NCBI GenBank assembly: GCA_963971405.1
Contig: OZ020487.1
Coordinates: forward strand, 17,767,344 to 17,831,343
DNA from: Psococerastis gibbosa
Lineage: Eukaryota; Arthropoda; Insecta; Psocodea; Psocidae
Reading direction: 5' to 3'
Length of the DNA stretch: 64,000 nucleotides
Below the pieces are notes generated by a model, which saw nothing but the letters and a program-made list of their open reading frames with translations, was not told the DNA's origin and did not search any database. The translations under genes and the position numbers were made by a program. Shown here piece after piece: positions 17,236-50,476 of the stretch. The stretch's first letter is position 1, and each line of letters begins with the position of its first letter.

Positions 17236-17374
17236 GGCTCAAAGTACACCGACCTCGATAGTGATAGTGATACTGATATTGACGTGGTAGCAGACATTTT
17301 TAGACTGTCTTTAATGTCTGCTACCTGTCAATATCAGTATCACTATCACTATCGAGGTCGGTGGACTTTGCGCC
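17236..17374. mobile_element. Palindromic hairpin element E3 (139 bp)
   Basis: Two arms of about 61 bp are almost exact reverse complements around a 16-nt spacer TTTTAGACTGTCTTTA. Arm order is end GGC(T/G)CAAAGT(A/C)CACCGACC, variable segment TCGATAGTGATAGTGATACT, then the 18-mer TGACGTGGTAGCAGACAT. The right-hand 18-mer is slightly changed. TAA (left) and TTA (right) flank it. Confidence 0.85.
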
Positions 17375-18584
17375 TTAGTACGCAATGTTTGCAAGAGAAT
17401 TGGTTACAGTAGTCGAGAGAGAGAGAGAAAATCCGTGTATTTACAAAGAAAAATCGGTACAATGCGAAATACAACGCTGCACCACCGCAAGTCGAAGCGT
17501 ATGAGAGTGACACACCAACCTACCAGTCGTAGTAATTATTAAAAATTTATACATGAACTTAAAACGTAAAAACAAAGCTGAGCATTGTCCTAGGTATAAA
17601 ATACAGCAGTTGCAATTGGGGTAGGTTCTTCAATCGTCAAAAATAGAAATACAAATTTATAGTCATGCAAGTACTGTGCATAGTTAAGTAAATCAAAAGT
17701 CTCTGTTAAAGCGTAAGTGCGGTTTGGTAAATTATATATTTGATTTCCTATCCAATAAGTAATTTTGTGTTTGCGGACCGGAAATTAATATACAGGCCTG
17801 CCTGTGCTATCTAAATTTTGATATTGGGTATTACCATTATGCATATGTTGTTAATATAACTGTATATTGTTGTTGCATGATAAAGAAATGAACGTCGCGA
17901 GTTAGTCATAGTTAGTCACTTAGGGAGTGGTATTGTCAGTTAAGCTGTGGATCTAGTGATAATTGGTTGTAAGGGAGGCGGGTGTAGTCTGCCTGTTTCT
18001 ATGGTAAAGAAGTCTATGTATTTTGTACAGTACTTATTAGGGCAGTATTTTATGGATTCCATAGACTTGTTGGACTAGAGTTTTGGTTATTAGCTAAAAA
18101 TAAAATAGGAGTACCCCCACTATGCGCTTTTTGTATTCTGTCGATTTTCACAAGGAAATATCAAAAAATAGCCGCTAATATGACAGAAATTTTCAACTAC
18201 ATTTTGAACAAGGGGGGAACAAAAATGTATATAAACTATGGATAACCCATCATTTTGAAAAAAAACTGAAAAATGCAACTGATGGCCGTAAACTTTGACC
18301 CATTTAATTTAATCAATTTTGAATCATATCCATTTTTTTCGAATCGTTGCAAATATTGCTCTCTCCCAATTTTTATAGCAACCCTTGTGAGAGTTTCCTT
18401 GGTGACTTCGTGGAACTTGGAGAACATCATGAGTAGAAGAAGAACGCAATGATCCACAGTGAAATCACCCCCCCCCCCCCCTCCACCACTGTTTTAGATA
18501 CATGACAATATGTCGTCTTCACTACACCAATTGGCCACAATCTGGAACTCCTTCCTCGCGACTACCACAACAATCTTTTTTTGC
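17375..18584. other. Intergenic or TMEM218 intronic stretch
   Basis: Contains (GA)n at about 17414-17429 and a C run at about 18469-18482. The remaining TMEM218 exons were looked for on the minus strand here and not recognised. Confidence 0.35.
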
Positions 18585-18740
18585 TTTCCTATTTATACGC
18601 CGTTGTAAGGGAAGCTTTGTGATGGTCGTAATTAGCGATTTCGAGATTTTCACCGATTTACACATTTAGGGTTTGTCCTTCTGTAACTCGGTACTCTATA
18701 GAATTTGATATTTGGTGTTTAAAAATACATATGTATATAT
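18585..18740 (+). repeat. Repeat R, 5' partial copy
   Basis: TTTGCTTTCCTATTTATACG followed by AAGCTTTGTGATGGTCG and GATTTCGAGATTTTCACCG matches the head of the long copies at 45225 and 59364, with decay. Confidence 0.65.
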
Positions 18741-18989
18741 TATATTCATATAATATAAATCCCCGGGCGATACTCTTAACGGTAACATTTTGAGTGGTTG
18801 TAGAGGTACTGTAGTAGTAATAGTAGTATATTTCCAGAAACTAATATGACAATGTTTGTGGAAATATCATATATACCGCAACGTCATCGGTATGCATAAT
18901 GCATACCTACAAACTGATCAACGGTATGTGGAAGTTTCTGCTTCTACTGAAACATGACTTTATGCAGTCATTTATGGTTAGGTACTTAC

Positions 18990-19190
18990 CCTGTGTACTT
19001 CAGGAGTTGGCGTCTTTGTGTCTAGTGGAATTATTAAAAGAATTATAGTGATAATGCTTCCAAACGAAAGAGCATAAGACACCAAATTCCGACGAGTTCT
19101 ATACGATACGACAGCAATAAACAGTGCGCTGAGCCAGATAAAAAATAAAATCACCAATCCAATCCCTACGCCAAATACTAAAGAAGACAT
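18990..19190 (-). CDS. TMEM218: TMEM218, first coding exon
   Basis: 201 bases encode 67 residues from ATG (19190) to the donor CACAGG|GTAAGT in phase 0. The start MSSLVFGVGIGLVILFFIWL matches the TMEM218 family (human MAGTVLGVGAGVF...), with a second hydrophobic span SFGSIITIILLIIP and the conserved PTPEV just before the splice. TMEM218 is a small multi-pass membrane protein of the ciliary transition zone that works with the MKS module. The family is about 115 residues, so roughly 45 residues with the last membrane span should lie in exons at lower coordinates. They were not found between 15.8 and 18.9 kb. Confidence 0.8.
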
Positions 19191-20313
19191 TATCTATTTC
19201 TTCATCTTATCAATCATTCTGCTAGCTCCTTTAATTATTTTACCTTTTAAATAACTAAATAAGTAAAATAACACCACCAAAAGCAGACGAAATGTTGACA
19301 AAGTTCAAACAATCAAAGTTCCATTTTTGTTATGTTCATGTTGTTGTGATTGTCATTGATAAAAAAATTAAAATTTCAATATATAATACACTATTTGGTT
19401 TAATTTAATATAAAATTTGACAAAATGTATTTTAAACGTATGAATTTGTAAATTCAAATTAGAATGATATTATAAAAATGAGTTAAATTTTTTGTTTATC
19501 CTGCTGATGTTGGTATATCTAACCTAAAAATCTAAAATGGACACCCGACTGCTTGTGAAAAGAAAAATATAACATCAAAGTTTAACAAAATTTTGTTTTT
19601 CTTGAAAAATTAAATTGCCATTTGAATGAAGAACTAAATTATGAGCATTTGTAGGTATTTTTTATTTTTAATTTAAACTAATCTTAAACGCATACACTAT
19701 CTCTGATCTTTACATTAAGGAATAACTGCATTAACCGCATTGCAAAATTATTCGCAATGCAACAACTCTTTGTTGAGATAGTGTAATAAGCTAGTCATAT
19801 GTATTTTGGCGAGTGGGAATTATTGTGCAACGTTCGCAATGACTATTTGAGACTATTGCATCCAATGACATAGTGTCAACTCTGAAAAATAACTATGTTG
19901 CGGAACTCAAATTGAGTGTGTCACTAGATGACACGCCTTGACCAAACATAAGCTTTGCACTTGAGCAGAGAATTTGGGAGTAGGAGTTTAAATATTTTTT
20001 AATGGACATAACCTAATTTGAGTAGTCTTGTAATTTCTGCCGCATATTTTGTTGCATATTGACTGCATTCAGGGTATTCAGCAAAGGCTGGTGCTTGGTA
20101 GATTTCATGATACAAAACGTAAAGAAATGCGAAAATACATATACCTATGAAGTTTAGATTAGCACTGGCAAAAAATTTTAGAGAAATTTAAAGAATGCAG
20201 CACCAAAGGCAATAGACAATCAGTGATCTGGAGTTGGAGATTCTAAATAAGCGCGCGGCGCTTCTGAGTTTCAACAGCAACAACAAGCCTATGAGAGCAT
20301 AATCTTATTCGAA
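19191..20313. other. TMEM218 5' flank
   Basis: AT-rich sequence. No repeat family or core promoter was recognised. Confidence 0.35.
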
Positions 20314-20405
20314 TATTAGATTAGATTAGATTAGTAATGGGGCGATGCTGCTACTTGAGCTTGGCTCACTTTGACCTTAAAGATCTATTGTGAATCCCCG
20401 TACTT

Positions 20406-23400
20406 TTAGTCCTGGTCAGTCAGCAGGTCCCGTAAAAACCTGCACAACTGCCCAGGGGCCAACTGGCAAGCCTCCCTTGGTGATAGAAACCAAGAGGACG
20501 TTGCTAGCAGTCGTCTGTTCTTTACTGCCGGACACGAGCAGATGATATGCTCAGCAGTCTCAGCCTTTTCTGTGCAGAATCGGCAGGTGTCATTCAAGAC
20601 TTTACCCATGTTCTTTAAATGGTAGTTCACGTGGCAGTGTCCTGTGAGTGCACCTGTAAGTACCTTAAGTTCAGGCTTGCTGAGGTTCAGTGCTTTGGCG
20701 GTATAGCTCTTAGAGTGAGTGAGGAATATTTTGGATTGTCTGTGGCCTGTGACAGACTTCCAGTATGCTTCCTTTCTCTTTTCTTCCCATAGGCCAATCT
20801 CTAGGGTTTGGCGGTTTATCGGGAAGGCGCAGAAGGGTTCAGGCCCAATGAAGGGTAGCGCGCTCCCTTCTCTCGCCAAGGCGTCGGCATTTTCATTGCC
20901 TTCGATCCCGGCGTGTCCTGGAACCCACATGAGGGTGACTTTATTCGTCACCCCCAATGCGTTGAGTGCAAGCATACATTCCCACACCTGCTTGGACTCG
21001 TAGCTATTCGAGTCCAGCGCAAGTAGGGAAGCCATGCTGTCGGAGATAATGAATATCTTGCTGTGCGGTAAGCACGTTTAATGCAGTGCGCCGCACATGC
21101 GCGTATGGCATGTATTTCGGCTTGGAAGACTGTGGGTTGGGATCCCATGGGGATGACTAAGTTGAGTCGTGGCCCATAAACCCCCGCCCCTGTACCTCCG
21201 TTTTCTATTTTTGACCCATCAGTATAATATCTTAATGAGCCGTATGGAAAGACTACCTCTCCGTCAGTCCATTTTTTCCGGCTTTCCAATATAACCGATA
21301 AATTCTTTGAGAATTGAAAAGTTGTCTCCATGGAGTCTGAGAACATAACCTCCGGAACCTTGCACTCATTAAGAATGCGTAAGTGTCCAGTAAGGTCGCC
21401 AGGCTTTAGTCCATGGCTTTTCTTAATGCGATAGGCCCACTTAGCCGCCTCACTCTCGATGAAAATCGGGAGTGGTGGTAGGTTCAATAGGACCTCCATG
21501 GCAGCCGTGGGGCACGAGCGGGATGCTCCCGTGATCGCGGGGCAAGCCAGCCTCTGTAGTTTTGTGAGAGATTTTGCTCCCTTTTTGCTCTTATGCAGTC
21601 TAGGCCACCAAATTAGCGCCGCATAGCTAATTATAGGTCGCACAATGGACTTGTAACTTGTATAGCCAGTCCGTTACTTTCGGCTTAAGCCCCCACGTTC
21701 TACCCACCATTCTGCTTGTAAGAAATAAGGCGTTTCTCGCCCTGCTTACAGCCTGGTCCAGATGCAGGCTCCATGTGAGCTTCCGGTCAAGGATAACACC
21801 AAGATATTTGGTGCTATCTGTGAGGGCTAAACGCACCCCGCTGAGGGTGGGAGCTTTAATATTAAGCTTCAACTTCCTCGTGAACGGGACCAGGGTGGTT
21901 TTTTTAGGATTTATGTTCAGTCCTTCAGAAAGGCACCAATTATGGGCTATGGTTAAGGCCCTTTGCATTCGCTCAGAGACAAGAGCGTCATGCTGGCCTC
22001 GCACCAAGATCACCAAATCATCCGCATAGCCGCAGACGTCGTACCCATCTTGCCCTAGTGCAGTTAGCAGCCCGTCGACTACCAGAGACCGGAGGAGGGG
22101 GGAGAGGCATCCGCCTTGTGGGCAGCCCTCACCTGGCGTGGCTGTGATCGAGTCTGTGCCGAGTACCATTGAGATAATTCGGCTTTCTAGCGATGTCATG
22201 ATCCAGTCTGCTACGACTGGCTCAACGCCTCTCTTTTCTAATGCATTCATGGTTGATTTACGAGGCGTGTTGGAAAATGCCCCTTCTACGTCAATAAATG
22301 CGCATAGGGCTATCTCTTTGAACTCCAGAGCCTTTTCCAGTTTCCTGGTTAGACTGTAGAGCCGAGATGGTTGATTTACCTTTTTGGTAAGCAAATTGAC
22401 ACTTATGCTGGGGGTTCCGCATCAGCAGATCGCCTCTGATATAGTTATCAATAATCTTCTCCATCGTTTTCAAAAGGAAGGATGAGAGACTGATAGGACG
22501 AAAGGATTTAGCTTCGGTACTAGGGCGATTTCCAGCCTTTGGTATGAAGCTCACTTTCACCTCCCTCCAGGGTGTGGGAATGTGCGACCACGCAAAGCTC
22601 GCACGAAATAGGGCTAGCAGATCCGCCATGAGAATCTGAAGCCCCTTCTGCAAGAGGGCCGGATACACGCCATCGCCCCCTGGAGATTTGAAGGGCTTGA
22701 AGGACTTAATAGCCCAAGTAACCCTATCTTTTGTAAAGAGTTCTCGACCCAGTTTCCATGCTCCCCGCTTAGGGCGTTTACGCGCTGCGTGGGTGGGCGT
22801 CGTACCGCTGACTATGTTGGAGCCTGGAAAGTGGGTGTCAAGGAGCACCTCCAACGTCTCAGTACCTGACTGAGTGTAGGTGCCATCCCCTTTTTTAAGC
22901 TCACCCATGCCGTTGTTATGGGTCTTAGCCATAACTTTATGCAGGCGAGCTGCAGTCGGTGTCTCGTTGATCCCTTGACAGAATGAACGAAACGACTGCC
23001 GTTTTGCTTTCCGCAACTCTCGAGAGTACTCTGCTAGAGCGGTTTTGTAGACAGCATGGTGATTCGAATCCCTGCTGCTTGACCACTTGTTGTAAAGCCG
23101 TCTCGTTTTCTTGCGCAGTTTTGATAGCTCCTTATTCCACCATGGTGCATCACCATCAGATTTCGGAGCTACCTGTGCACAGCTAGACTCAAAAGCATTT
23201 TTAATTTTGTTATGCAGGTTAAAGGAGGCATTTTCAATCCCATCTATATTATTTAGATCGTGTGTCCTCGGACCCTCCCTATCTAACAGACTTAGATATT
23301 TATTCCAGTCTGTGCGTCTCGGGTTTCTTCTCATAGCCTGCCGTGGTTTGTTAGCCACGATTCCAAACATAATATGCTTGTGATCAGAGAGTGAGGCATA

Positions 23401-24005
23401 ATCCGAAACATGCCACCCAGCAATCTTCTGCTCAATTGCAGGACTGCAGAGTGTGAGATCGAGTACCTCATTTCTGATAGCATTTTCAAAAGTTGGCTTA
23501 TTACCCACATTACTCACCGACACCCCGTTCGCAACGAGGTAGTCAAGGAGATCTTCTCCCCTCTCATTGATGTCGGAGCTCGCCCATGCAGTGTGATGAG
23601 CGTTGCTGTCACATGCAACGATAAACTGGAGATTGTTCTTCTTGCAGTGTGAAATAAAGCTCTTCGTAGCTTCGGGGGGCGCTGGGTCCCCGTGCGGGAA
23701 GTAGGCTGCGGCTACAGAAACTTTGATTCCCTGCACTTCTATCATCACTGCTGCGAAATCGCGTTGTATGAATCTAGACATAGGAAAGCAATTTAGTTTT
23801 TTGTCTACCAGTAAGGCAGCTCTTGGAGCTGTACTGTCAGACGAAAGATAAATGAGCTTACCTTTTTGTGAGTTCAGGCCCCTGATGGCGTTTCCCACCA
23901 CGTACGGCTCCTGTAACATCATGATGTCCACATCTTCTTTTAAAACCTCCGCAAGGCAGTATCCGAGGCTGCCTTGGCGTGATGGAGGTTTGCTTGGAGG
24001 CACTT
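20406..24005 (-). pseudogene. LINE ORF2: endonuclease, RT, RNase H, Cys/His cluster
   Basis: The endonuclease starts right after the ORF1 stop with NIKCLQANLHHAKAA. It shifts frame near 23945 and continues with DVDIMMLQEPYV, ACDSNAHHTAW and SLSDHKHIMF (catalytic D/H residues present). RT follows: VSFIPKAGN, FRPISLSSFLLKTMEKIID, a frameshift near 22340, FIDVEGAFSNT, GCPQGGCLSPLL and GYADDLVIL (near 22020). Another frameshift lies near 21635. RNase H has YTDGSKIENGG and FQAEIHAI, a frameshift near 21040, then SDSMASLLAL and VPGHAGIEGNENADALA. CRFCTEKAETAEHIICSC is a C-terminal zinc-like cluster. The enzyme would nick DNA and copy RNA by target-primed reverse transcription. Confidence 0.88.
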
Positions 24006-24009
24006 GATG

Positions 24010-25509
24010 TTAGCGCCGACCCCTCTTACCATCTACGTGCTTCCAGGGTTTCCCCCGGTTTCTGGATTGAGGGCCACGAAGGTCCCTGGCTGGGTCCAGA
24101 TCTAGATCGCGCTTATTCCGAGCAACAGCTTTGCTGCCGTCTCTACTGCCTTTGGGTACCTGGCGTCGATCCTTATTAGCGACGCTGCCGCCAGGTTCCT
24201 TGGCATTTTCGATTTTTGGAGTCGGGTCAGTGGAGCTGCCTTCACCCGCCTCAACTGAGACGGAGGCTGCGTTTTCCTCTGCCTGACTTTCGTCTTTCCC
24301 TTTTCTAGGGTGCAGTTTCACTTTACCCAGTCGAAAACAGATCTGAAAGCCAGCTGCTGTCAGTACCTTGAAACTGCTTTGATCGACTGCAAAAGCTACT
24401 TCTACGCAGTTTTTCTCCGTGTTCCTTCTACGCAGTACCCTCCAAGCTTTACACTGCAGCAATGGATTCTGGCCTGCGATATAGTCCACGATTTTGGCTG
24501 TTTCGTAGCCAAGGCTATTGGGAAAGTACCCAGTTACCACCTGCGAGCTGGGGAGATCTTTTCCATCGAGGACAATAATGTCAAGATCTGACTGACTTAG
24601 CTCTTCTGCCTTGCTCTTGGCCCAGGCCGCGGTGCTTTCATTCTCGCAGACGACTACGAGGTAGCCACAGCGGAAGGTGGTGCCCCCAAATCTGAGAGGA
24701 GGGCCTTCGCTCGTGACGTCCTTATGCACCAGCTCAGCTAGTCTTTCCTCAGTGGACACCAGCTGCTCTTGGGTCATTGTCACCTCGGGGTAGTTACGGG
24801 GCAGTATCCCTACCCTATAGCATTCCCCTAGGCGTACAGCATCTCGGTAGCTGCTTTGGTGAGCTTGGATTACCTGTTGCTGCGTTGACCCTGTAGCATT
24901 GGTGCGTGAGCGTTTTGCAGCAGTCGGCTGCGGTGGAGTCGGAGTCATTGCCTCCGATCTGCCTCTCTTTACAGCTGGAGGTGTGGGTGCAGAGGTGCCC
25001 CCCCTTTCGGCTATCTTGAGAAGGCAGAGCTTCCGGGCTTCTTCATACGAGTGCCCTATCTTTAACAGATATTTCAGCCTCTTCCTCGCGGTCGAGCTGA
25101 GCCCTTTTCGAGGAGCTTTTGCCGGTTCGTTAATGACCAGCTTCTCCACTGATAAGGCGGTGATCGTACTGGCACCGTCTGACGAATCGTCATCGCCGCT
25201 GAGCAGCATTGCTTCCGCCTGTGGCGACGGAGTAGGACACTCTTCCATCTGCAGAGGGCCTGAGGGCCCAGCTCCAGAAGCCAGAGTGTCTAGAGAACGG
25301 TTGCCAGTAGAAACAGTAGCTGTTTCTGCCTGGGTTCGCTCTGAGATATTTCCAGTGGAAGCATCAAGTGTTTCCGCCTGGGTGATGGTAACTTCAGTTG
25401 GAGCTACCTGAGCTCCAGCCTGAACCATAATACGTTCCACCAATGTGGAAGTTTCGGTGGACTCTTGAGGCGTGTCCGAGCCTGGGTTTTTTTCCTTTAG
25501 AGAAATCAT
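24010..25509 (-). CDS. LINE ORF1, Gag-like RNA-binding protein
   Basis: An intact frame of 499 residues starts at ATG 25509; upstream codons in frame exist, but this is the first ATG. The first 140 residues are acidic and Ser/Thr-rich. A basic helical stretch follows (ARKRLKYLLKIGHSYEEARK). The central domain, from about SSYRDAVRLGECYRVGILPR to CFRLGKVKLHPRKGK, resembles the DUF4780-type domain of insect LINE ORF1 proteins; that assignment is from memory of the family. No CCHC knuckle is visible. The C-terminus is strongly basic. It would coat element RNA. Confidence 0.75.
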   Translation of the reverse strand: MISLKEKNPGSDTPQESTETSTLVERIMVQAGAQVAPTEVTITQAETLDASTGNISERTQAETATVSTGNRSLDTLASGAGPSGPLQMEECPTPSPQAEAMLLSGDDDSSDGASTITALSVEKLVINEPAKAPRKGLSSTARKRLKYLLKIGHSYEEARKLCLLKIAERGGTSAPTPPAVKRGRSEAMTPTPPQPTAAKRSRTNATGSTQQQVIQAHQSSYRDAVRLGECYRVGILPRNYPEVTMTQEQLVSTEERLAELVHKDVTSEGPPLRFGGTTFRCGYLVVVCENESTAAWAKSKAEELSQSDLDIIVLDGKDLPSSQVVTGYFPNSLGYETAKIVDYIAGQNPLLQCKAWRVLRRRNTEKNCVEVAFAVDQSSFKVLTAAGFQICFRLGKVKLHPRKGKDESQAEENAASVSVEAGEGSSTDPTPKIENAKEPGGSVANKDRRQVPKGSRDGSKAVARNKRDLDLDPARDLRGPQSRNRGKPWKHVDGKRGRR

Positions 25510-31217: not shown

Positions 31218-31320
31218 GGCGGCTATTCCACCGATTTGGATCATTAATAAGGCTCAGTGATGTCTGCTACCACGTCATGACACATTCACATTCAAAATCC
31301 ACGTCGGTGGAATAGCCGCC
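31218..31320. mobile_element. Palindromic hairpin element E4, left-arm deletion
   Basis: GGCGGCTATTCCACCGA (31218-31234) and its exact reverse complement bound 103 bp flanked by TTA on both sides. The right arm keeps the 18-mer and a variable segment; the left arm lacks both. It is a deletion derivative of the hairpin superfamily. Confidence 0.8.
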
Positions 31321-31354
31321 TTAAATATTGACTTTAAATCGTGACTCTGTGTTC

Positions 31355-32599: not shown

Positions 32600-35500
32600 A
32601 AAGTGAAGTAAACCGGAGTAAAGTCGCACATTTGTGGCTAATGCATGGACGAGGATCTCCTCCTGAGGGTGTGTACTGCGTTAACCCACACTACTAATCG
32701 CTACTGGGAAGCTCGGCGTCTAATGGCTGTATAGCCACTGACGGACGTTGGATAAAGTAAAAGTAAAGTAAAGTAAGTACATTTGCGGCTGAAGAGCTCC
32801 TCGCCGGTGCAAAAAATATTTCATATCCTCCTTCAGGGAGATTAACATTGATAATGTTTACGTTACAGTTGTGGAATTGGGTGACGATATTGAACCCTGT
32901 CTGGAGGACAGGACGTTGGTGCTGGCCAACCACCAGTCCACGGCAGATGTTCCTCTACTTATGGCAATATTCAATGCAAAACGTGGTGTTCTGCCCAATG
33001 TCATGTGGATAATGGACCGCATTTTTAAGTACACTAACTTTGGAATTGTGTCCGTCCTTCACGAAGACTTCTTTATTGTTTCCGTAAGTTTTCAGTTTTC
33101 TTCACAAACTAAGGTGCTTATTCCACCTACGTCAATAGTCAATAGTAAATGTGGTATTGACGTTTTAGCTGACATTAAAGACAGTCTAAAAATGTCTGCT
33201 ACCACGTCAATACCATATTTACTATTGATTATTGACGTAGGTGGAATATGCGCCATAACAGTTATTAAATGGATTAATTATATTCCTGAAAATCATTCAA
33301 ATATTATCTATATCCCTACCTCACTATTGTCGGAAGGAGTGCGCCAAACAGTATATGTATTTCAGGCGACATGGAACGTATCCACACTACAGAGGCTATC
33401 CCGTTAGCACAGCTCAGTTGCAAATGGAGTTTGAGATGAACTTTCTTGAGTGTAGGAGGGTGGTTGCAGACTGTATTTTCTTTTATAAGCTGATTAACAG
33501 TCATCTGGACTGCCCTTCTATACTCGAAAGAGTTCACCTCAGAGTCAATATCAAGAACACATGATCGAAAAACCTCTAACTCTACATGTAAGTCACCGCT
33601 TGGTAGGATCATTGAGGTTATACACAGACTCAATGAGCCTACCATCCTTCAGGGCAGCTATCTTGGGCATTATAAGTAGGCCAGTGCTGTAGGGTGAATT
33701 GTTGTTTTATAGGTATGTAGTTTTAGTTATTATTTATTTATTTATTTTGTTTTTAAAAGCCTTTGGATGTATTTTTTGGTGGCGTGTACTGTACCATGTA
33801 ACTGTCATCGTTGTGGACCTGATCTGTTGATGGCTCAAATAAAAACTAATGTATTTATTATTATTATTATTAAATATGAATAGAATTTTTATTTCCAAAT
33901 TATCATCAACTAGTTGAGGTTCATTTCGCTTATCTATTGACTGTATATTATCTTATTGGTTCGTAATATCTGCAGGTTGTCCCTATATTGATTTAGATGA
34001 ATGTTACACTGTGTTTGATGAATAATTAATATTTCCGTCTTTATTTATAGGGGAAGGACAAGCGAGAGCAGTCTTTGAAAGATTTAGCTAAGCATTTACA
34101 AAATTCATTCATTCCTAGGAAAAGAAAGTGGATCATCCTCTTCCCTGAGGGTGGATTTCTCAGGAAAAGACGTGAGACTAGTCAAAGGTAGCTATTTAAA
34201 AAACGACACATATCTTTATTTATAATCGGCTTTGTAGTGCAAATTACCCGCCCTTCACTCGATTGATTACTTTGAAGAGCACTGCATTCATTTCCTAATC
34301 ATGCTGAAAATAGTTTCCTCACATTTATAAACTAAATCTTTGCTTAATTTGTTATTAATACTAGAAATTAAACTTATTTCATCCACTGTTTATTGTCTAC
34401 TGATAGAAATAGTCGTAGGCCTATAAATTAGTCGGGGCAAATTCTCAAACAGTGTATTACTCATTATTTGAACGACGCCTTGTGTTTTTGATGACACTTA
34501 AAAAAAATTGTTAAATTGCTTATTCTCAGTCAGTACTTGCTTTTAGGCCTGTAAACCACATAACATCATCAAGTACAGTGTGTGACTTTTTTTTCAGATT
34601 CGCACAGAAATTAAGTTTGCCTGTTTTGCAGCACGTTTCACTCCCTCGGTTGGGTGCCATGCAAGTTATTATGAATAAAGTCGGCTGCGATGCTGTCGAA
34701 GTTTTAAATAATTCACAAAATGATAAGTTCTCTAAAATTGTTTCATCGTCTAATCATATTGGAGGTAACTATAAATTAGATTTTATTAATTATTAATTTT
34801 TTTTTGCTTTCTGTGCCTTGGGCTCCTAAAATACATACAGTGTTGCTCATAATAATAGGGACACAGTGAATTTTCCTAAAATCTCCAAAATGGCAAGAGT
34901 TTTGGCCTTGATTGTTAGCAGTAAATAACATGGCAAGAAGTTTGATTTGTTGTGTAAATTTCATCCCAATTGCCCAAGAACGTGAGAATCTAATGAAGAT
35001 TTTCAAAAATACGTCGGTCATAATAATAGGGACATTACCTTTACTTCTTTAATAAAATGCAGATAAATTAACAAATTACAATTTAATCATCAATACTTGG
35101 TAGATTGTCCCTTGTTATGAAGAACAGCATTGCATCTTGAGTACATTTAAGTGACCAAATTCTGGCAAACAGACCCAGGGATGTTGTACCACGCTTTTTG
35201 AACTTCTTGACAAAGGTGGTCTTTATTCTTGATTGTATCTTTAGCAATACTCTTCTTAAGTTCATTCCATAAGTTTTCTATCGGATTCAAGTCCGGTGAT
35301 TGTGCTGGCCACTCCATAACAGATATTTTTTCCCCCGCGAACCATAGTTCTTCACCAACTTCGATGAATGTTTTGGGTCATTATCTTGTTGGAATTGCCA
35401 CAGCAGTGGCATGTTTTCTTCTGCATAAGGAAGAATTTCATTTTCTAATATGTCCCGATAGATTTCCTTAGTCATAATGTCCCTGATGAGGTGAATAGGA

Positions 35501-38216
35501 CCAACTCCGTTGAACGAGAAACAACCCCATACCATTATGTTTCCTCCACCGAAGTAAACAGTCTTCCTAGTGTACTTAGGATTGAATGCGGCGTTAGTTG
35601 GCTGTCTCACGAACTGCTGGCCATCAGACCGAAAGAGATTTATCTTGGTTTCATCGCTCCATAGGACGTTCCTGGATTCGCGGACAAGGAAACGGTCAAA
35701 ATTTTCGGATGTCTTCTTAGGCCGACTTCTTTTTTCGACTGCATTTTGTTCCTTTAACGCGTTGGCCACCATTGTTTTTGATCGATCGACTAAATCAGCA
35801 ATTTTTCTGATGCTAAACCCTTTCTTCCGCAAGCCGCAGATAATTCTTCTTTCATCATCAGAGCAATGTTTCATGCGGCCCATTTTCTCAAAATATCTTG
35901 AGATTTTAAGTGACAAGAGGCCTTGGGCAGATTTTTAAATTTTCTTTGTTTTTGGCTTAAATAAAAACAAAAACTAGACTCGCGTCCTTATTATTATGAC
36001 CAGCGAAAATTTAAAAAAAAATCTTGAACGCTTTAAGTTCTTGATACTTTTTAACCAAACTCACACAAAATATTCAGATAACCAAGCCGTCAACTACTGC
36101 TGACTATAATTGTGGTATCTCAATGGGTTTAAAAAAAAATTGAAAAATTCGAAGTGTCCCTATTATTATGAGCAACACTGTATATACATGTATATACAGT
36201 AGAATCCGTTTATTATGACATCGAAGGGAATTGACAGACACGTCATAATAAGCGGATGTCATACAAAGTGTATACAAAGCGGTATTGAAAACCAACACCA
36301 ACATGTGCAATTACGTCATAATAGGTGGAGGCATAATAAACGGATTCTACTGTATACATGTATCCATATATATATATATACAGTATATACTTTTGCTGTG
36401 ATATACAGTACGAAGGAGAATTGAAATAATGATTCATAATTCAAAATGATCGTAATAAAAAATCTTTGTTGCAGCTGAGGATTGCAGCAGTGATAAATTA
36501 CGTTGGGTTATTGACATTACAATCGCTTACCCGAAAGGGGAGCCACTAGATTTACCTACGATCGTGACTGGCAGTAGACCTCCGTGCCAGACATACCTGT
36601 TTTACCGTCGATATGCCTTGTCCGAGGTAAGTGTCGCCCTGAATGAAGAACCAGTAGAATCCGGGCTGATGGGCCGTGGTCTAATTGAATGTGAACTTCC
36701 AAACGTTTCGTCAACATCTACGGTCGACATCTTCAGTGGCGCTGCGTAGACTTCGAAGGTTGTACCTCGGTGGCTAGCCCGGATTCTACTGGTTCTTCAT
36801 TTGACTCAGGCCGTGAAAGACTTTGCAGTTACATTGTCGCCCTGAAACCTGGCAAACAATTAATTTTTGGACATGTCGTTAACTTAAAAAAGTAAATTGA
36901 AAATAATATCACTAGAGCAAACGTTTGTTTGTTTTCCTACGCCTGCAATCCTGACAGCCTGGCGGGGGGAGTGAGTCTGTTTGTTAACTTGAGGCACCCT
37001 AGGGGCAGACTCCTTCACCTCAGGGAGAAGGGGAGTTGACTGACAGGGTGGACCTCCTGATTATAGTGGATTCCGACCCACTTGGGGAACATAGTAAAGT
37101 CACACGATTAATTCGGAGTTGACCAGCAGCCTGATCATGGCGATTATAATACCGGTATTTATTTAATCCCCTGGTATTAAAAATATAAACAAGATAATTT
37201 TATAGTGGAAAGTGCTATTCAAAATTTTTTTGTTTACGTTTTTAATACCAGGGGATTAAATAAATACCGGTATTAAAATCGCCATGATCAGGCTGCTGGA
37301 CTTGACACGCACTTAGGCTAACTGGTAGCCTCAGCTCGTTATCATGTTCCCTTGTGTACACTACCAAGTTTGCTTCAGTTTTGAATAGCCTCTGCTCTTG
37401 GTGTGGCCGTTGGCTCACTAGAACCAATGCTGAGCACCAAATCTAAAGCTGAGAGAAGACTGTACGAAACAAAACAAAATGTAAAAAAGCGAAACCCTTG
37501 TATTACATTGTAACAGGGAAACATCTTAATTACTTATGCTTTTTTTTCACATTCTGAACTGTCACTTCACCCACACGTTTTCTCTCACGCCACGGTCTTG
37601 TTCTTTCTCCGCCTAACTTTGGCATATTCACAACAACATTGTAAATTTAAGTGAAGAAAAAATATCGAAATCAACTCTATGAACTCATTAGCCACTGATA
37701 TCCGAGGCCAAGCCAAGAAGTCTCTCGACAACTAGAGACACCTAGCGACAGACAAAGCGCTAAGTTGACTCCCAACAATCCCGATACGCTGCGTTTCGAT
37801 ACAAAAAGTTGCGTATTGCAATTTCAAAGTCCTGCCAAAAAAAAGTTTCACTTCAAAAAGTTTGCCGTCGCCGTGATGTTTTTTCTATATAACATATTGG
37901 TTTTTTTTCTCAGATACCGCAAGACGAAGAAGGAATGAAGAAGTGGTTGTACGATCGTTTTATTGAAAAAGAGGAAGTGCTTGGGAAATTTTATGAGACG
38001 GGTGAATTGCCGGCGAAGGAATGGTTCAGGCAGTGGGTTCCTCCTCACGAGGTCGTCCAAGACCCCCTACGGTTCTTAATTCTTCACATCTTCTTCATCA
38101 CGTCGTCATGTGTCCATTATCTCTTCTTATCTTCCGTTTTTTCGTATATTTGGTATGGCTTTGTTCAAGACAAATTTCTGCTTTCTATTGAACTAATAGG
38201 GCGGTTGTGGCTGTGA
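31601..38216 (+). CDS. LPGAT1: LPGAT1 acyltransferase, six exons (start exon not found)
   Basis: Exons 31601-31809, 32869-33083, 34051-34187, 34598-34764, 36475-36626 and 37914-38216 join in phase into 393 residues. The order matches vertebrate LPGAT1: N-terminal hydrophobic [13 protein letters not shown], the acyltransferase HX4D motif [27 protein letters not shown], the [15 protein letters not shown] block, [14 protein letters not shown], then [22 protein letters not shown] and a hydrophobic C-terminus. LPGAT1 is an ER-membrane acyltransferase that acylates lysophospholipids (described first for lysophosphatidylglycerol). Exon A needs one upstream exon ending in phase 2 with the ATG, not identified with confidence. 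A candidate AATAAA is at 38377-38382. The introns hold at least six mobile elements. Confidence 0.92.
31901..32187. repeat. Pair of direct repeats, 48 bp, in LPGAT1 intron A
   Basis: 31901-31948 and 32139-32187 share GTGTAC(A/T)GCCCGTAGGAAA and GGCAGCCCGAAATTTAATAC, at about 90% identity. They bracket 190 bp of unrelated AT-rich DNA and could be short terminal repeats or a duplicated unit. Confidence 0.6.
32565..32595. repeat. (TA)n microsatellite
   Basis: About 15 TA units in LPGAT1 intron A. Confidence 0.9.
32640..32780 (+). repeat. Non-LTR retrotransposon 3' end
   Basis: GGCTGTATAGCCACTGACGG followed by ACGTTGGATAAAGTAAAAGT forms a 3' end with an AAAGT-rich tail. The same end appears in reverse at 26755 and, without the tail, at 14465. 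It stops about 90 bases before LPGAT1 exon B. Confidence 0.55.
32869..33083 (+). CDS. LPGAT1: LPGAT1 exon B, HX4D motif
   Basis: Acceptor GTTACAG to donor TTTCC|GTAAGT. It encodes [13 protein letters not shown], with catalytic His and Asp of the acyltransferase motif I, and the strongly conserved [20 protein letters not shown]. Confidence 0.94.
33113..33254. mobile_element. Palindromic hairpin element E5 (142 bp)
   Basis: Arms of 63 bp surround the spacer TAAAGACAGTCTAAAA, the reverse complement of the spacer in E3 and E6. The variable segment is GTCAATAGTCAATAGTAAAT; ends and 18-mer match the superfamily. It lies 29 bases after the LPGAT1 exon B donor. TAA (left) and ATA (right) flank it. 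Confidence 0.85.
34051..34187 (+). CDS. LPGAT1: LPGAT1 exon C, FPEG motif
   Basis: Acceptor TTTATAG to donor CAAAG|GTAGCT. It encodes [19 protein letters not shown] and [23 protein letters not shown] is the glycerol-phosphate-binding motif of the acyltransferase family. Confidence 0.94.
34598..34764 (+). CDS. LPGAT1: LPGAT1 exon D
   Basis: Acceptor TTTTTTCAG to donor TGGAG|GTAACT. It encodes [20 protein letters not shown], matching FAKKNNLPFLTNVTLPRSGA in human. Confidence 0.93.
34838..36180 (-). mobile_element. Tc1-like transposon with IR/DR ends, internally deleted
   Basis: The 27-bp inverted ends CAGTGTTGCTCATAATAATA(GGGACAC) are exact (34838-34864 and 36154-36180) and flanked by TA (34836-34837, 36181-36182). 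A related inner site, GTCATAATAATAGGGACATT at about 35017 and its reverse near 35983-36000, sits about 175 bp inside each end. This makes four transposase-site-like repeats, the IR/DR arrangement. The element is 1343 bp and lies in LPGAT1 intron D, opposite to the gene. Confidence 0.92.
35083..35883 (-). pseudogene. Tc1-like transposase, broken
   Basis: From ATG 35883 it reads [20 protein letters not shown] and a helix-turn-helix ([20 protein letters not shown]). It then jumps from the DNA-binding region to [20 protein letters not shown], so part of the linker and second HTH is missing. Catalytic blocks SDETKIN (D1) and QQDNDPKH (D2) are in one frame. The third block, [20 protein letters not shown], appears after a frameshift near 35330. 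A C-terminal piece continues to about 35083. It cannot make active transposase. Confidence 0.9.
36197..36352. mobile_element. Pogo/Tc1-like MITE
   Basis: CAGTAGAATCCGTTTATTAT(G) and its reverse complement bound 156 bp, flanked by TA on both sides. The CAGTRGAA end and TA target fit pogo-type elements. It lies 16 bases from the end of the Tc1-like element. Confidence 0.75.
36475..36626 (+). CDS. LPGAT1: LPGAT1 exon E
   Basis: Acceptor GTTGCAG to donor CCGAG|GTAAGT. It encodes [20 protein letters not shown] and FYRRYALSE, matching LQWIIDTTIAYPKAEPIDI in human. Confidence 0.94.
36644..36834 (-). mobile_element. Small insertion with hammerhead-like core, copy 2
   Basis: 191 bp are flanked by exact 12-bp direct repeats TGTCGCCCTGAA (36632-36643, 36835-36846), six bases after the LPGAT1 exon E donor begins. 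Inverted segments AACCAGTAGAATCCGGGCT and partner pair at its two sides. The minus strand has CTGAAGA...GAAA in a 33-nt core (36704-36736) with a stem GTCGAC/GTTGAC between them. The same core, with different flanks, is at 12310-12342 and 53473-53505. Confidence 0.55.
37044..37130. repeat. Dispersed repeat S, copy 1
   Basis: GTGGACCTCCTGATTATAGT then GGATTCCGACCCACTTGG and AAGTCACACGATTA recur at 46290-46375 at about 90% identity. The family is not recognised. Confidence 0.6.
37133..37299. mobile_element. Foldback element D, copy 1
   Basis: CCAGCAGCCTGATCATGGCG begins a left arm of about 62 bp whose reverse complement ends the element. Both arms contain ATACCGGTATTTATTTAATC. The loop carries AGTGGAAAGTGCTATTCAAA. 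A more complex copy lies at 57968-58265. Confidence 0.75.
37914..38216 (+). CDS. LPGAT1: LPGAT1 exon F, C-terminus
   Basis: Acceptor TTTTCTCAG to stop TGA (38214-38216). It encodes [20 protein letters not shown] and ETGELP, then a hydrophobic stretch ([20 protein letters not shown]) likely to be a membrane helix, as in vertebrate LPGAT1. Confidence 0.93.
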   Translation: MPQDEEGMKKWLYDRFIEKEEVLGKFYETGELPAKEWFRQWVPPHEVVQDPLRFLILHIFFITSSCVHYLFLSSVFSYIWYGFVQDKFLLSIELIGRLWL

Positions 38217-44000: not shown

Positions 44001-44520
44001 GGATACCTATTTAGTATCAGTCTAGCCAACGCTGCAGCGCAGCTTAGGATGTGCATATTGAGTAGAAGGCTTTAAATGTTCCCAGAGAATTAAATTTTTT
44101 TTTAACTGTTGAAGAAAAGAAAATCGAAGAAAAAGTAGACTCGGCGATACGATGCGAAACCTGATTTTAATATGCGGAGGTATGGCCATAGGCTACACCT
44201 GAACTTTATTGTGCTTAATCTTTTTCTTAGCTAAATACCATCCTCTTCACCGCACTAATGGGCTATTTGCTATGCTTTGACTAGAAACGCTTAAAAACTT
44301 GCGCCAGTGGACCTTTATTTTCTAAATTTTCCGCCGGGGTAAACTCCCGGCCCGTCCACCTCAGTTTGGCAGGTAGTATTCTGTTTTCTTTAAATATTTC
44401 TTTCTGAAACCCACAAGCCAGAAAAGTAATTTAATTTACATGTACGGTATTTTTCCAATTTTGTTCTATATCTATTATTAATATTTGCACTGTCTTTCCC
44501 CCTTCTATTAATCTATTATC
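41077..44520. other. Long intergenic region
   Basis: About 3.4 kb of AT-rich DNA. No exon with recognisable homology and no clear repeat family was found in it. Confidence 0.4.
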
Positions 44521-44680
44521 CATGGCCGTGCCCAGGGGTGTGGTCCATAGGGTCCGGACCCCCCCCCCCCCGAAATACATTTTTGTAGATAAACCTGTAT
44601 GGTTTGAATAATTTATCCATTAATGAATTACGTAACAATTTTTTTGCCCCCCCCCCCATCATAACCTGGGCACGGCCATG
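44521..44680. mobile_element. hAT-like MITE with C runs
   Basis: CATGGCCGTGCCCAGG and its exact reverse complement bound 160 bp with two C runs. Flanking octamers CTATTATC and CTATTAAA share six of eight bases, fitting a hAT 8-bp duplication. Confidence 0.75.
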
Positions 44681-45224
44681 CTATTAAATATTGCTGAAGT
44701 TTACAGTAAAGAAAAAAAAAACAAAAAAAAAAACAGGGCAGACTTGTAGGGGTATAATGTATAAAAGACGCAACTTTGTTATCAATCATTGTACCACATC
44801 TTGAAGCCAAGGGTCAATGGAAATTTAATGATAAGGTCTAAATGCATGTTGAGAGAGAAAGCTTTTTGATCTATTTAAATTCCCGTTGTGTTCATTATCA
44901 TGATTCTAGATTAAATAAGGAACAATAAGGAAATATTTTTTGAAGTATTTTCCGCTTTATTACTAAAATTGTGTGTCTGAAAATAATCCGCGATGATGTT
45001 TTGCAGAAGATTGTTCACCGGGGAGCTAATTATGGGCTGGTTTCATATTGAGCTCCTCTGGTTACAGCTTTCCTGAACACAGGTAGCTGTCCCAGCCCCT
45101 TAACTATAGTTATTATTATTATTATTATTATTGTTTTAATGACTTTATGATGAACCCAGGCTTACCCATAGGTCCCGCACCCAATGCCAATGACACCATG
45201 GATTTCGGGCATTATTGCTTTCCA

Positions 45225-45338
45225 ATTTATACGTAGTATAAGGAAAGCTTTGTGACGGTCGAAATTTTCGATTACGAGATTTCAACGGATTTACACGTTT
45301 TGAGGTCCCAGGAACCCAAAAAAGTGGTTTTTACGAAG

Positions 45339-45369
<31 letters not shown>

Positions 45370-45920
45370 GCGTGCGTCGATTTCCGGGCAAACTACTCGG
45401 TCGATCTTGATGAAATTCGGCATGTAGGTTCACAAAAATCATACCTCGGAACCATTTTTTTTTTGGGCTAACTTAATTTGGGGGGTTTTATTCTCAAAAA
45501 ACTCCCAAAAAACGTCTAAAAAAATTATTTCTCAAAAACGGCTCCAACGATTTCTTTTAAATTCACATATATTGTAGTCGTTATTAATATTAACGAAATG
45601 CGTGGGGTCGCTTGCCCCTTGATAGGTTGCTTCTGGAGGTAAAAAAATAAAAATAACTAAATTTTAATGAAAAATGACTAAAGAAAAATTTTTCTGCGAA
45701 ACCTTTCCATCGATGATTTCTACCTTCAAGCATGTTTTCGGTGTTAAATTGAGTAACGAAACCGGACAGGTTGCTTTCCCAGAAAAGTATTTTGTTTTGT
45801 AGAAAAAAAATGTTTTTTTTTTTGAAAAAATGATAGAAAATTCACGCTCAAATGCATTGCGTGCCCTGCCAGTATTGCTGTGTGGTAATGTGTTGGTCTG
45901 ACCTATCTAGAATTTACTTC
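45225..45920 (+). repeat. Repeat R, long copy 1
   Basis: It starts TTTCCAATTTATACGTAGTA and AAGGAAAGCTTTGTGACGG, continues with GTCCCAGGAACCC, a (TGTC)n array at 45342-45368, AAACTACTCGGTCGATCTTG and AAACGGCTCCAACGATTTC, and ends TGTTGGTCTGACCTATCTA. About 700 bp align colinearly with 59364-60060. No coding frame, terminal repeats or A tail were identified. Confidence 0.8.
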
Positions 45921-47350
45921 ACCTCCAGTGACGTCAGGTGGACAACCCCCCCCCCCCCCCCCGAGATATCGGAAATTTAGCCATAGGAAAATTATTTACC
46001 ATGAAATTACTCATTTTCTCTATCTACTAATTTTGATAAATTGGAAAGCATGTTCGAGTAAACTTGGACCGGTTCTTTGTATTGTTTCCGTATTAATTTT
46101 TGGCAATTGGCAAACTGGTATATGCCGGTTACAAGGGATAATGGACAAGCTGAGACAAGCTTACCATTCACTCAATGAAACCACCGAAAGCATGACTTAG
46201 TAGTAGTAGTGTTCGTCGGGTTAATAACGACTTAAGTCTTATATTTGGGCCCATAGAGAGACCCCGACTTGACTGTCTTATGCCAGCCCATAGGACAGTG
46301 GACCTCCTGATTATAGTGGATTCCGAACCACTTGGCAAACACAGTGAAGTCACACGATTAGTTCGGAGGCGACCAGGACAAGTCCTATTCTCCTATACCA
46401 TGTTTCCCTACCGGCATTGTGCACACGTTATCTGCAGCTTTGAACCTGCATGACTTAACCAAGTACAGCTATACGAGTCAGCCCCTTAACTGTGTCCCGT
46501 TCTTGCTTTTCTATAGTCTGTTGATATTGATAAATTAATCCTCAGCTATATTTTTCGGGAGTTTTCAATTTTTTCTCCCCTACACATTAATTCAAAGTCT
46601 TATTATATCTCAAAATTCTACCTGTATATTTTAATGTTTATAAGTATTTCCTTCAATTAAAAAATAATGCAGTCATTCTTTTGTATTCCAATAATTTGAA
46701 TTTCCCCGCGCGCATATTTTAACACCGTCGCGTGACACCTTATACTAATACAGCATTAAAAAATAAACCCCGGTGTTATATAATCCCAAATCGCCATATT
46801 AGGGCTCCTGAAGTTCTGATTTTAGGGTACGTTTTTTTTCCTCGTTATAAAGATGAGGGTTTTACTGGGCTGGCGATAGAAGTCGACTGAGGAAATGAAT
46901 ATTTGCGTCTGGGAGCACTACGCTGTATAATTACAAAGGAAATGATGAGTTTTACGGAGAAAGGGGGGGGGGGTGGTTGTCATCGGGGTGAGGTCATAAT
47001 GTAAGCTCAAAACAGCTGCACCCATTCCCCCCACCGTAGACATCAATAAATCTCTCCCCCGCTTTGACTATGGTCGGGGTTTAACAACTGAAATTACCCT
47101 TCTGACTTTAGACAAGTTCATGCATTTTTTCTAAACGATAGTTTTATTTCTTGCTATTTTATTAAATTTTTATATTTTAATTTTTTTAAATTGTATTAAT
47201 TAATAATTATAAATAATAACTTCATCTTAATGTGACTTCAGTTTTCTCTCTCTTAAAAACTATTTTTGATAACTGAACATTTTTATAACTCGGGTAAAAA
47301 GTGGAAGAAAAAATAAAGCTCATTGGTGCGTACGGCCGGCTTCTTCTTAA
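45921..47350. other. Intergenic with repeat S copy 2 and C/G runs
   Basis: A C run at about 45947-45962 sits in a unit resembling 58905-58945 (TCACCTC...GTGAC...AGGTGGAC). Repeat S copy 2 is at 46290-46375. A G run lies near 46964-46973. A fragment of the MITE-T end (TACGGCCGGCTTCTTCTTAA) abuts element C2 at 47331-47350. Confidence 0.45.
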
Positions 47351-47730
47351 GGCGCCCATTCCATTGACCGGCTAGGGCTATTTCCAAAAACAGTGACGTG
47401 GTAGCAGACATTCAAGACTTAGGTTGCGTTTCCACCGATCTCTCATTGCAGAATGCAAATGACATTGACGGAAATTAGAATTTTTCTTTTTATAGAAATC
47501 TATTAAAATGTTTGTACTTAACATATCCCATGACGCCATTTTTTAATTTTAGTTTGTTTGTGATTTTACTGTATGATCATTGATCAATTTTAACTATGGC
47601 ATAGAGGAAAATAAACATTTCCGTCAATTCTGCAATGCGAGGTCGGTGGAAACGCCACCTAAGTCTTGAATGTCTGCTACCACGTCACCGTTTTTGGAAA
47701 TAGCCCTAGCCGGTCAATGGAATGGGCACC
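47351..47730. mobile_element. Nested palindromic MITE, copy C2 (380 bp)
   Basis: Same length and design as C1, flanked by TAA on both sides (47348-47350, 47731-47733). The inner loop is in the same orientation as C1. Confidence 0.85.
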
Positions 47731-49381
47731 TAATGGACAGATTTTAAAAAAATTAAACGAAGTTAATTAATTTCTCGTTCCAGAGACGCTGTGGAAATAG
47801 GTCAGATAAAAAATTCATAAAAAATGTTTTCTCTAAAAGCTATCTATCGTATTTCCTCTACAGAATATTTTGCAATCTGTCCCTTAACTAATTGTTTAAA
47901 AAGTTTAATGCTTTGTTAAAGTGAGTAGTGAGGGAAAATAAAAATAAAAATTAAAATTAAATACTTTTTCAAATCTATTTTATGCTTGGTTATCCAATTT
48001 CTATTTCTATGTTTTCTCCAGTTTACCATTGGTAAATGAATACCCCCAAATGATGAACGAAACAATCATATATTTTCCAAAATTTCTCGTACAAATGGAC
48101 AAAATTTAAATTGCATATGTAGCTATTGCAGTAGGTAGCCCCTACTTACATTGCGTTCAAGGCAATTTTAACTTTCCAGTACTGAGCTCCCCTTTTTCAG
48201 TCTGATGTATTCATTCATAGTTGATGTTTAATTCTTGGGACAGTACAAACAAACAGTTTGAGGTCAGACAGTTGTATCTTGCAGACGCGTGGCGAACATA
48301 AATTATTTTATTTACTATTTACTTAGTTGTATCTCCGGGACTTGCTTGAGTTGTTTATAACCGTGCGTTATGCGGGGAACCTTGGCTGCGTCTCTAGGCT
48401 TAGCGTTATTTTTCCTTGATAGTATTGTCTGCATTAAATGCAGTGAAACCAATAATTGAACTTTTTTTAAATTCAATTCTTACTTTCATAGACTACTGTT
48501 TGTGATCAATATACGTGCGTACCTACAAGTTTTCTTTATAACCTCCTAACATTCCATACTGCCTTACACTACTGATAATGAACGTCCTCGGTCCTACATG
48601 GCATTTCAGCTGTTATCACTGAGGCAGATAATGATGCATAATTCTGGATACTTTTGTTAGCAATATTTTGGATGTGCTTTGCATCTCAGTAGGCCTACTT
48701 TTAACAGCAATAGCCTACTTGACAGTTCAAACAATAACAATAATATATGCTAGATAAGGTAGCTTAAAATAGGTTAACAATATGTTTTTGCATGAAACAA
48801 AAAGTAAAATTTAAAAAAATAAATGAAGGCTGGTGTTTTTAACTGTTGATTACTATAGCCAAAACGCCCGTACACATGGGTGACCAGAAAATGAATTCGC
48901 TTTGTCGTCATTGCCAAAAAGTAGTTTTTTTCCTAAACTAAATAACGTTTTAATTTTTTTGGAGGATTATAAAATAAATCTACCAATGCGTTATAATAGG
49001 TTTTCAAAATTTTTCAAATAGCCTATTATCTTATTTGAATAATTAAGTTGTGGCATGTAACATTTCATTTTTAGTTAATAGCTGCTGAATTCCAAAAGCA
49101 ATTGAAATGTGGGGGGAGGGTTGCGAGGGGAATATAGGTAAGCCACGTGCTGTTAGTTTGTAAATGCTGTCAGCGTTAGTAAGCCGTGCCCGTTCTTACT
49201 CCCCGCAAGCATTTTTACCAAATCGGAATGAACGAGGTGAGCCAAAGTTATCGTGTACGACTGGCTAAAATTTGTTTTCCGTACCCTTTATTGCATGGAC
49301 CGCATATAATTCTTTATTTTTTGTCTCTTATATACTAAAGCTTTTGGCAAATTAATTGATTTTCTCTTTAATTGTAAATCG
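47731..49381. other. Intergenic stretch
   Basis: AT-rich; no feature recognised apart from a possible SINE-B fragment starting at 49382. Confidence 0.4.
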
Positions 49382-50129
49382 GCTTTGATGACTAGGTGGT
49401 TGCGTGCTTGTGCTTGTGCATAATATATCTCTTACATAGTTCAGAATCAACAGGCAAAATGTATTGATATTATTACAAACAAGGGGGTCGGGGGTCTCCC
49501 GATATGGAGGATGGTAAATCCTGATAAAGAGCGACTCCGTTTGAAATTTAACGTTTGACAAAGGATACTCAATAGTTGCCATTGTCGCCTACTCGTATGT
49601 TGGAATATTTTAAGGCAGCATACAAATTTTTCTCTGAAATTATTTAAATTTCTCAGGTGGTTGGCTGTAGGTGTGGTGTGTTCCTCTGGTAAATTTTCTA
49701 ATATATCAAAAAGTGATTTGTAGGCTTACGTCTGCTACAATATATCCTTTCTGGTAGGTATTGTTCCTTGAACACCTGGGCGTGGTCATTTCCTGAGTTG
49801 AGTTTTCTCTCGGGTCATCGGAAACAATACCCTGTTAACAGGGAGGGTCGGAACTAACCCTAGTGTTTGAGGGCCATTAATTTTGTGATAGGGATGGCTC
49901 CAGACGGTTTTCGATCAATATAACATGTCTGATGGTATTCACTTTTTTTTTAAAAGTTTTAGTTTTGTTATAGCATGGCTGAATAAATTCTTCAGTCGCC
50001 TCTGTATGTACCTTACACAGGTCTACTAGCATTGTTAGCAACAGGTATACAGTACTGGTATGCAACAGTTACTGTTTCATCGCAGATTTAAATTAAAATA
50101 AAATTACGGTATGTTATTTACTAGTAGTT

Positions 50130-50310
50130 ATAGACTCCGACTTTCACCCAGAAGGTTGTTCGAGTCCCACACTGGCTACATTTTCTGGCCATGCTTTGGA
50201 GGACATGTAAAGCAGGCGGTCCCGGGTCATCCTAGTTGAGTGTATGAGAGGGCTTTATAAACCTAACTCCGTTAGGTTGGCTTAGTAATAGAACAACAAA
50301 AAATCAAGAT
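50130..50310 (+). repeat. SINE-A, copy 4
   Basis: Begins with the tRNA-like CTCCGACTTTCACCCAGAAG, B box GTTCGAGTCCCACAC, and the usual body and tail. It ends about 35 bases before hairpin E6. Confidence 0.75.
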
Positions 50311-50346
50311 TTATTTATTTTATTTAGAAGAAGCTGATGAAACTTA

Positions 50347-50476
50347 GGCGGGGTATCGTATTTGAACGTGAGCGAGATATTGACTTTGTAGCAGACATTT
50401 TTAGACTGTCTTTAATGTCTGCTACCACGTCAATATCTGGCGCACGTTCAAATACGAGGTCAATGGAAACCCCGCC
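50347..50476. mobile_element. Palindromic hairpin element E6 (130 bp)
   Basis: It has the same spacer TTTTAGACTGTCTTTA as E3. The variable segment is CGTATTTGAACGTG. The left arm lost about ten bases near its end. TTA (left) and TAA (right) flank it. Confidence 0.85.

Follow-up and report, generated by a model that had tools for sequence, protein, structure and literature searches.

An abundant family of hairpin transposable elements in Psococerastis gibbosa with spacers that probably evolve in lockstep on both arms

A 64,000-nucleotide stretch of the genome of the insect Psococerastis gibbosa (assembly GCA_963971405.1, contig OZ020487.1, positions 17,767,344 to 17,831,343; hereafter the window) contains ten copies of a hairpin-forming repeat, five of them nested. 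Comparison of these copies with others from the genome shows that they belong to a very numerous family of short, non-autonomous miniature inverted-repeat transposable elements (MITEs), whose arms carry a spacer that has probably evolved in lockstep on both sides by arm-to-arm copying. A preliminary description of the window had proposed that the spacer is swapped as a cassette, either by copying of one arm onto the other or by capture of new DNA that is then duplicated in inverted orientation. Copying of one arm onto the other is strongly supported by changes shared by both arms, by one-arm intermediates and by loop halves duplicated in both directions. Capture of new DNA is unsupported for most spacer types, which have a near-constant length (24-27 bp) and differ by small steps.

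Anatomy and abundance of the family

Each arm comprises a conserved terminal block of ~18 bp, a spacer (middle segment) of 24-27 bp in the window copies and a conserved 18-bp core, and the family ends read GGCG...TTCCACCGAC. Subfamilies with widely differing spacers have nearly the same terminal block and 18-mer, the simplest reading being that both are putative contact sites of the transposase or a helper. All of the simple hairpins and nested shells described previously were recovered in the window, as follows.

4137..4354: simple hairpin, spacers at 4155-4178 (+) and 4313-4336 (-), flanked by CAA/CAA
17236..17374: simple hairpin, ATAGTGATAGTGATACT subfamily, spacers at 17254-17279 (+) and 17331-17356 (-) with 26/26 identity, flanked by TAA/TTA
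17280..17297 (+): 18-mer core block TGACGTGGTAGCAGACAT, one of several in the window
31218..31320: hairpin with a single 18-mer (31260-31277, -), spacer at 31278-31302, flanked by TTA/TTA
33113..33254: simple hairpin, CAATAGTCAATAGT subfamily, spacers at 33131-33157 (+) and 33210-33236 (-) with 25/27 identity
50347..50476: simple hairpin copy, part of the left terminal block deleted; right middle segment 50433-50458; flanks TTA/TAA
2770..3149: nested element, a one-arm intermediate (shell left arm CTAAAT, right arm CTATTT)
47351..47730: nested element; 25-bp spacers of the shell at 47369-47393 and 47688-47712, with the inner element (47422-47659) inside the shell loop
50587..51011: nested element, inner loop 41 bp longer
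52636..53015: nested element, both arms of CCACCG/TTTAC type
62624..63005: nested element, both arms of CCATTG/TTTCC type, within another long-inverted-repeat element

Within the window the 18-mer is matched 17 times at ≤3 mismatches, against 0.03 expected from shuffles, and its start lies 43-46 bp from the element end. Self-complementarity of the spacers was likewise confirmed, the two arms agreeing at 21/25, 24/25, 24/25, 24/25, 23/25, 22/24, 26/26 and 25/27 positions in the eight of ten copies measurable on both; the remaining two, at 31218 (18-mer in one arm) and 50347 (left terminal block incomplete), barely inform arm matching. The proposed common end motif, GGCGSNNATTCCACC, fits the copies only loosely, with the 17236 copy reading AAAGTMCACC and some shells CCATTG. 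Single-strand folding of three copies produced hairpins with z-scores of -20.4, -19.4 and -13.1.

Exact copies of the 18-mer number 25,576 in the 409-Mb genome (12,722 + 12,854), compared to none for the control pattern read backwards, and 3,825 compact hairpins of the family were found genome-wide. Together with a length of 103-425 bp in the window and inverted terminal repeats, these numbers are as expected of MITEs. Arms of the 17236 type are present at 88 + 104 places at ≤3 mismatches. For detailed comparison we read 48 of 50 listed compact hairpins, 20 nested copies (from 25 pairs chosen by eye among 100 listed 18-mer places), 12 + 20 further copies with a special junction and 12 of the 17236 type, as well as nine arbitrary 10-kb stretches and eight 3-kb loci. 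The places sampled are mostly from the first part of contig C1, and loci L030-L032, and L033, L034 and L044, are not independent as they share flanks (copies of one larger repeat). Arms are fully or partly decayed in some copies (L036, L048 and others). A family-pattern search of viral contigs returned one match in GC-rich DNA, which was judged to be due to chance; the two-part family pattern had no match in viral contigs, nor did the exact pattern in genome contigs.

Relationships among spacer types

Spacers of different subfamilies had been described as completely different, but most types are joined by point-mutated intermediates in one register. The hairpin arms of simple types align in this register along their whole length (41 of 43 hairpins, the other two having loops that could not be oriented), and a minimum spanning tree of 121 distinct segments from 201 arms has 90 of its 120 steps at 1-3 edits. 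A path of 1-4 edits per step connects the L043 type (TTTTGCAGAATGCACATGACAT) with the nested shell, passing through CTCTCAGTGCAGAATACACATACGG, CTCTAAGTGCAAAATACACATACGG, CTGCAAGTGCAAAATGCACATACGG, CTGCTAGTGCTAAATA, CGGCTAGGGCTAAATACAAATACGG, ...TATTTACAAAAACGG and ...TATTTCCAAAAACGG. Among the 10 pairs of simple window copies, five are similar on at least one arm pair at p ≤ 0.005 and five are not (400 shuffles, uncorrected for multiple tests), and the nested shell spacer has at best a weak likeness to that of 17236 (p 0.01-0.02, one shell arm).

Cassette exchange, in which unrelated 22-25 bp segments would be captured elsewhere and installed inverted on both arms, is rejected for most types because of this ladder of small-step intermediates. 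The extreme spacer types do look unrelated, and three gaps remain: 8 edits separate the 17236-type from the L045-type branch, 9 edits 4137 from its nearest neighbour and 10 edits 31218 from its own. Both points speak for this explanation. However, the unbroken path from the L043 type to the nested shell and the retention of spacer length and register, with simple types aligning end to end, make it very improbable as an account of the family. A series of point-mutated intermediates had been named in advance as the observation that would contradict cassette exchange, and such a series exists for most types, but not across the three gaps. The family is thus not one of unrelated segments lacking intermediates.

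Concerted change of the two arms

The two sides of an element can be distinguished because the loop is asymmetric. We compared consensus arm pairs of nine subfamilies in all 36 combinations, and found 3-23 sites changed alike on both arms and 0 side-retained, noting that the pairs are non-independent and that the consensuses were built from 32 of 41 oriented copies grouped by eye, three resting on one copy and one on two. Copies with irregular arms were omitted (L024, L036, L040, L042, L046, L047, L049, L050 and L053); one of these, L053, has on side 1 an arm holding its own small palindrome, GTCAATAGTTCACTATTGAC, and a shortened partner arm. A similar picture is obtained within single types. 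Among 34 of the 36 nested shells, the arms at position -10 read A/A 16 times and C/C 18 times with none discordant, and at position -29 they read C/C 14 times and T/T 18 times with two discordant; positions -41 and -2 are often discordant between arms. The class II grouping of these shells wrongly includes L017 and L078. The 17236 type comprises seven AAAGTCC-like and five AAATTCC-like copies, with arms judged by eye to be alike in all 12 that were readable; a thirteenth copy, L118, has a single arm.

Intermediates with the change on one arm also exist and point to a sequence of steps, including L009 (CCACCG/CCATTG), L064 (CCATCG/CCATTG), and nest2 and L013 (AAA/TTT), and AACAAC is found on one arm in four copies and on both in three. 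In the numerous CCATTG class both arms have CCATTG and TTTCC, and the consensus arms still differ at GGCG/GGTG and ACAG/ACGG, indicating that if copying took place its tract was short. Among L042, L047 and L050, two copies have lost one 7-bp CAATGGT repeat from a single arm and the other has lost it from both, which could reflect either repeat slippage or arm copying.

We propose that selection on moving elements probably maintains the terminal and core blocks, leaving the spacer free to mutate, and that short tracts copied from arm to arm, whichever the direction, would later carry a change arising in one arm to its partner, causing the spacer to drift in both arms in lockstep. The copying step may be template switching or gene conversion between paired arms during movement, replication (perhaps of an extruded hairpin) or repair (perhaps after excision).

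The loop halves of nested elements give the clearest evidence for copying. In simple CATTGCAGAATGCACAT-type elements the loop reads CATTAATAAGTCTT(T/G)A; if another family member inserted at TAA and duplicated it, CATTAATAA would be expected to precede the insertion and TAAGTCTTGAA to follow it; many copies have an extra A on the left of the nested insertion. Thirty-two loci were retrieved by their CATTAATAA junction, of which 16 are mixed CATTAATAA/CAAGACTTA, 11 have CATTAATAA on both sides and five are ambiguous. These include the first 12 loci (7 mixed, 3 two-sided, 2 ambiguous), 14 listed with the junction on one side (9, 2 and 3, respectively) and six picked because both sides matched, all of which are two-sided and count among the 11. 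At least 10 two-sided CATTAATAA pairs are present among 100 junction places listed, and an additional mixed junction came from an arbitrary stretch (L012 at 4277). Twelve more junction places lack the extra A or are otherwise different. By contrast, 35 of the 36 nested copies have CATTAATAA on neither side, with CAAGACTTA or a near variant on both and no direct TAA duplication, a set that is biased against CATTAATAA because the CATTAATAA side carries AGATAT rather than AGACAT and 20 copies were chosen for exact 18-mers on both arms and four for at least one. L068 has a deletion at the loop half-junction. Genome-wide, half-junctions of the CATTAATAAA kind number 744 + 692 = 1,436 compared to 10,608 + 10,593 = 21,201 of the CAAGACTTA kind (≤3 mismatches), the latter corresponding to ~10,600 nested elements if each has two.

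Judging by these junctions, an inverted copy of the right loop half most likely took the place of the left one in one branch, and replacement in the opposite direction most likely occurred mainly in the CTGCAAGTGC branch. Three loci (L127, L133 and L134) have a derived spacer on both arms and different loop halves, and L129 has AGATAT beside CAAGACTTA on its right side, making it either a hybrid or the product of a plain C-to-T change. An un-nested symmetric shell that could have been the source of the nested form has 0 exact places in the genome. Inversion of the loop was also considered as evidence of recombination and dropped, as in a palindromic element it shows only the orientation of insertion.

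The loop halves bear on the possibility that the arms mutate independently and that selection, whether for transposase binding or for the shape of the hairpin, keeps them matched. Conservation of the terminal and core blocks among subfamilies does indicate that selection acts on moving elements; however, the matched spacer is the unconserved part, so that a binding site there is unlikely, and point mutation does not give unrelated-looking loop halves (CATTAATAA and CAAGACTTA) duplicated both ways. We therefore consider independent mutation a highly implausible source of the matching arms.

Copies at rest behave differently from the lineages compared above. Of the 36 nested copies, ten that were divergent, gapped or difficult to register were set aside; in the other 26, private differences, defined as bases seen in <6 of 52 arms, amounted to 48 one-arm and 0 both-arm changes, from which it follows that inserted copies do not visibly homogenise. 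Copying seems to be confined to lineages that keep moving. This contrast is relevant to ectopic gene conversion or recombination between the arms of different copies, as opposed to arms within one element. Thousands of near-identical donor copies are available for such exchange, and L079 and L126 have arms of two spacer types, but ectopic conversion should also reach resting copies, in which no both-arm private change was seen, albeit that this is a weak test given that conversion bringing common alleles goes unseen. On balance we regard an ectopic origin as possible but doubtful. New subfamilies might instead be re-founded from half elements, one arm being duplicated inverted in a single event such as interrupted gap repair. 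The spacers of 17236-type copies, the same or nearly so on both arms in most copies readable on both, would fit such an origin, but arm-specific markers survive beside both-arm changes in the CCATTG-class shells and in L127, L133 and L134, indicating that at least those changes were short tracts, and re-founding appears unlikely as a general explanation. Arm copying could also be a regular step of transposition, via a folded hairpin with mismatch correction, such that movers evolve as palindromes; we think this improbable.

Several observations weigh against copying between arms as proposed here. All evidence is comparative, no locus having been seen in two dated states with a copying event between them, and in these data copying within an element looks the same as copying between arms that belong to different copies. 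Damage is common among the arms, the spacer tree has 17 of its 120 steps at ≥6 edits, and the mixed-junction loci L079 and L126 have shell arms of different spacer types, possibly as recombinants between two elements. The CAATGGT group keeps arm-specific markers (ATATGGTTTTGACGTGG and ATGTGGTATTGACGTTTT) across its copies, which implies that copying is at most episodic, and parallel mutation could be the source of some sites, such as the 7-bp repeat loss and the C-to-T change in CCACCG. Among the 48 one-arm private differences, single indels that were counted repeatedly make up at least part of the six in L069 and the four in L068, the comparison of columns without gaps inflating indels.

Affiliation, known systems and other features of the window

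PIF/Harbinger elements are characterized by a 3-bp TWA target-site duplication, and this is also found here. Flanks could be compared for 106 of 133 copies (26 had no locatable ends and one was dropped; outer ends were used for nested loci): 62 have identical 3-bp flanks, 54 of these being TTA or TAA, 22 have a TAA/TTA flip, 14 have another single mismatch and eight have two mismatches. DDE_Tnp_4 (PF13359) transposases are encoded in the genome, with 150 scored matches among 220 candidates, a good many of which lie in open frames. Their presence, together with the TWA duplications, suggests that the family most likely consists of PIF/Harbinger-type MITEs moved by a PIF/Harbinger-type transposase. 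At 8 of at least 150 transposase loci, read for ~1.6 kb on each side, no autonomous element with the family ends was found, which may count against this part of our interpretation. A family-like hairpin with CATATACGTCAATCGTCAACGAAAAATTGAAA arms lies close to a stop-free DDE_Tnp_4 frame at L099 (~2636-2797) and did not look like a transposon end.

Flips of the middle base make up 22 of 36 single mismatches compared to an expected 1/9 (p ~8e-13), with examples in the window at 17236-17374 and 50347-50476. If arm copying were a regular step of transposition, the flip would be a trace of that same step. As proof of in-place arm copying, the flipped duplications were rejected: in a smaller flank set, in which some nested loci (at least L012, L013 and L018) were anchored on the inner element, palindromy stops at 3 bp bar two mis-anchored loci and terminal mismatches are not fewer (1.1 vs 1.2 in 13 bp), and inserted copies lack both-arm private changes.

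The family resembles PIF/Harbinger-type (Tourist-like) MITEs in its short size, terminal inverted repeats and 3-bp TWA duplications, and differs from them in its near-complete hairpin arms and in the flipped TWA middle base of 22 of 106 copies. Foldback (FB) elements have long, internally repetitive inverted repeats and 9-bp duplications; with 3-bp TWA duplications and arms of ~60 bp the present family falls outside that group. As in Foldback and Angel hairpin elements, the whole element folds as a hairpin; the short arms and TWA duplications set it apart from both. For the Angel elements of fish hairpin-based amplification was reportedly proposed by Izsvak et al. in 1999.

How both ends of a transposon come to change jointly is a long-standing question that has mostly been neglected. 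The interest of this family is its record of intermediates rather than a new element class: it preserves one-arm intermediates, both-arm outcomes, tract edges, copying in two directions and a contrast between moving and inserted copies. The full set of copies could yield tract length, direction and timing, and a test of hairpin intermediates in MITE amplification. Template switching that corrects inverted repeats has been described for RNA genes (PMC8794818). Template-switch mutation of quasi-palindromes and RNA-gene stems is alike in that inverted-repeat arms are corrected toward each other with changes on both sides, and differs in that its cases are RNA genes and yeast, whereas here it would concern a transposon family with no sign of the process in 26 inserted copies. 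No description of this family or of lockstep evolution of MITE arms was found in the open-access literature searched, although one may still be in print.

The window contains several other repeats. Two related copies of another hairpin family (AATACCGGTATTTATTTAATCCCCTGGTA) are located at 37123-37299 and 57964-58192, the second with an extra overlapping arm pair, and a long-inverted-repeat element with arms from TTAAGAGGATGCTGGCC occupies 62584-63365, the nested copy at 62624-63005 being inserted in its left part. At 34832-36186, 43-bp arms with 91% complementarity are 1269 nt apart and belong to what we take to be a Tc1/mariner-like element; a Tc1-like frame in the window has a helix-turn-helix match just under the cut-off. 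A frame that is presumably glutamate-receptor-like has no Pfam match. Non-LTR retrotransposon frames are also present, and the gene content of the window looks insect-like.

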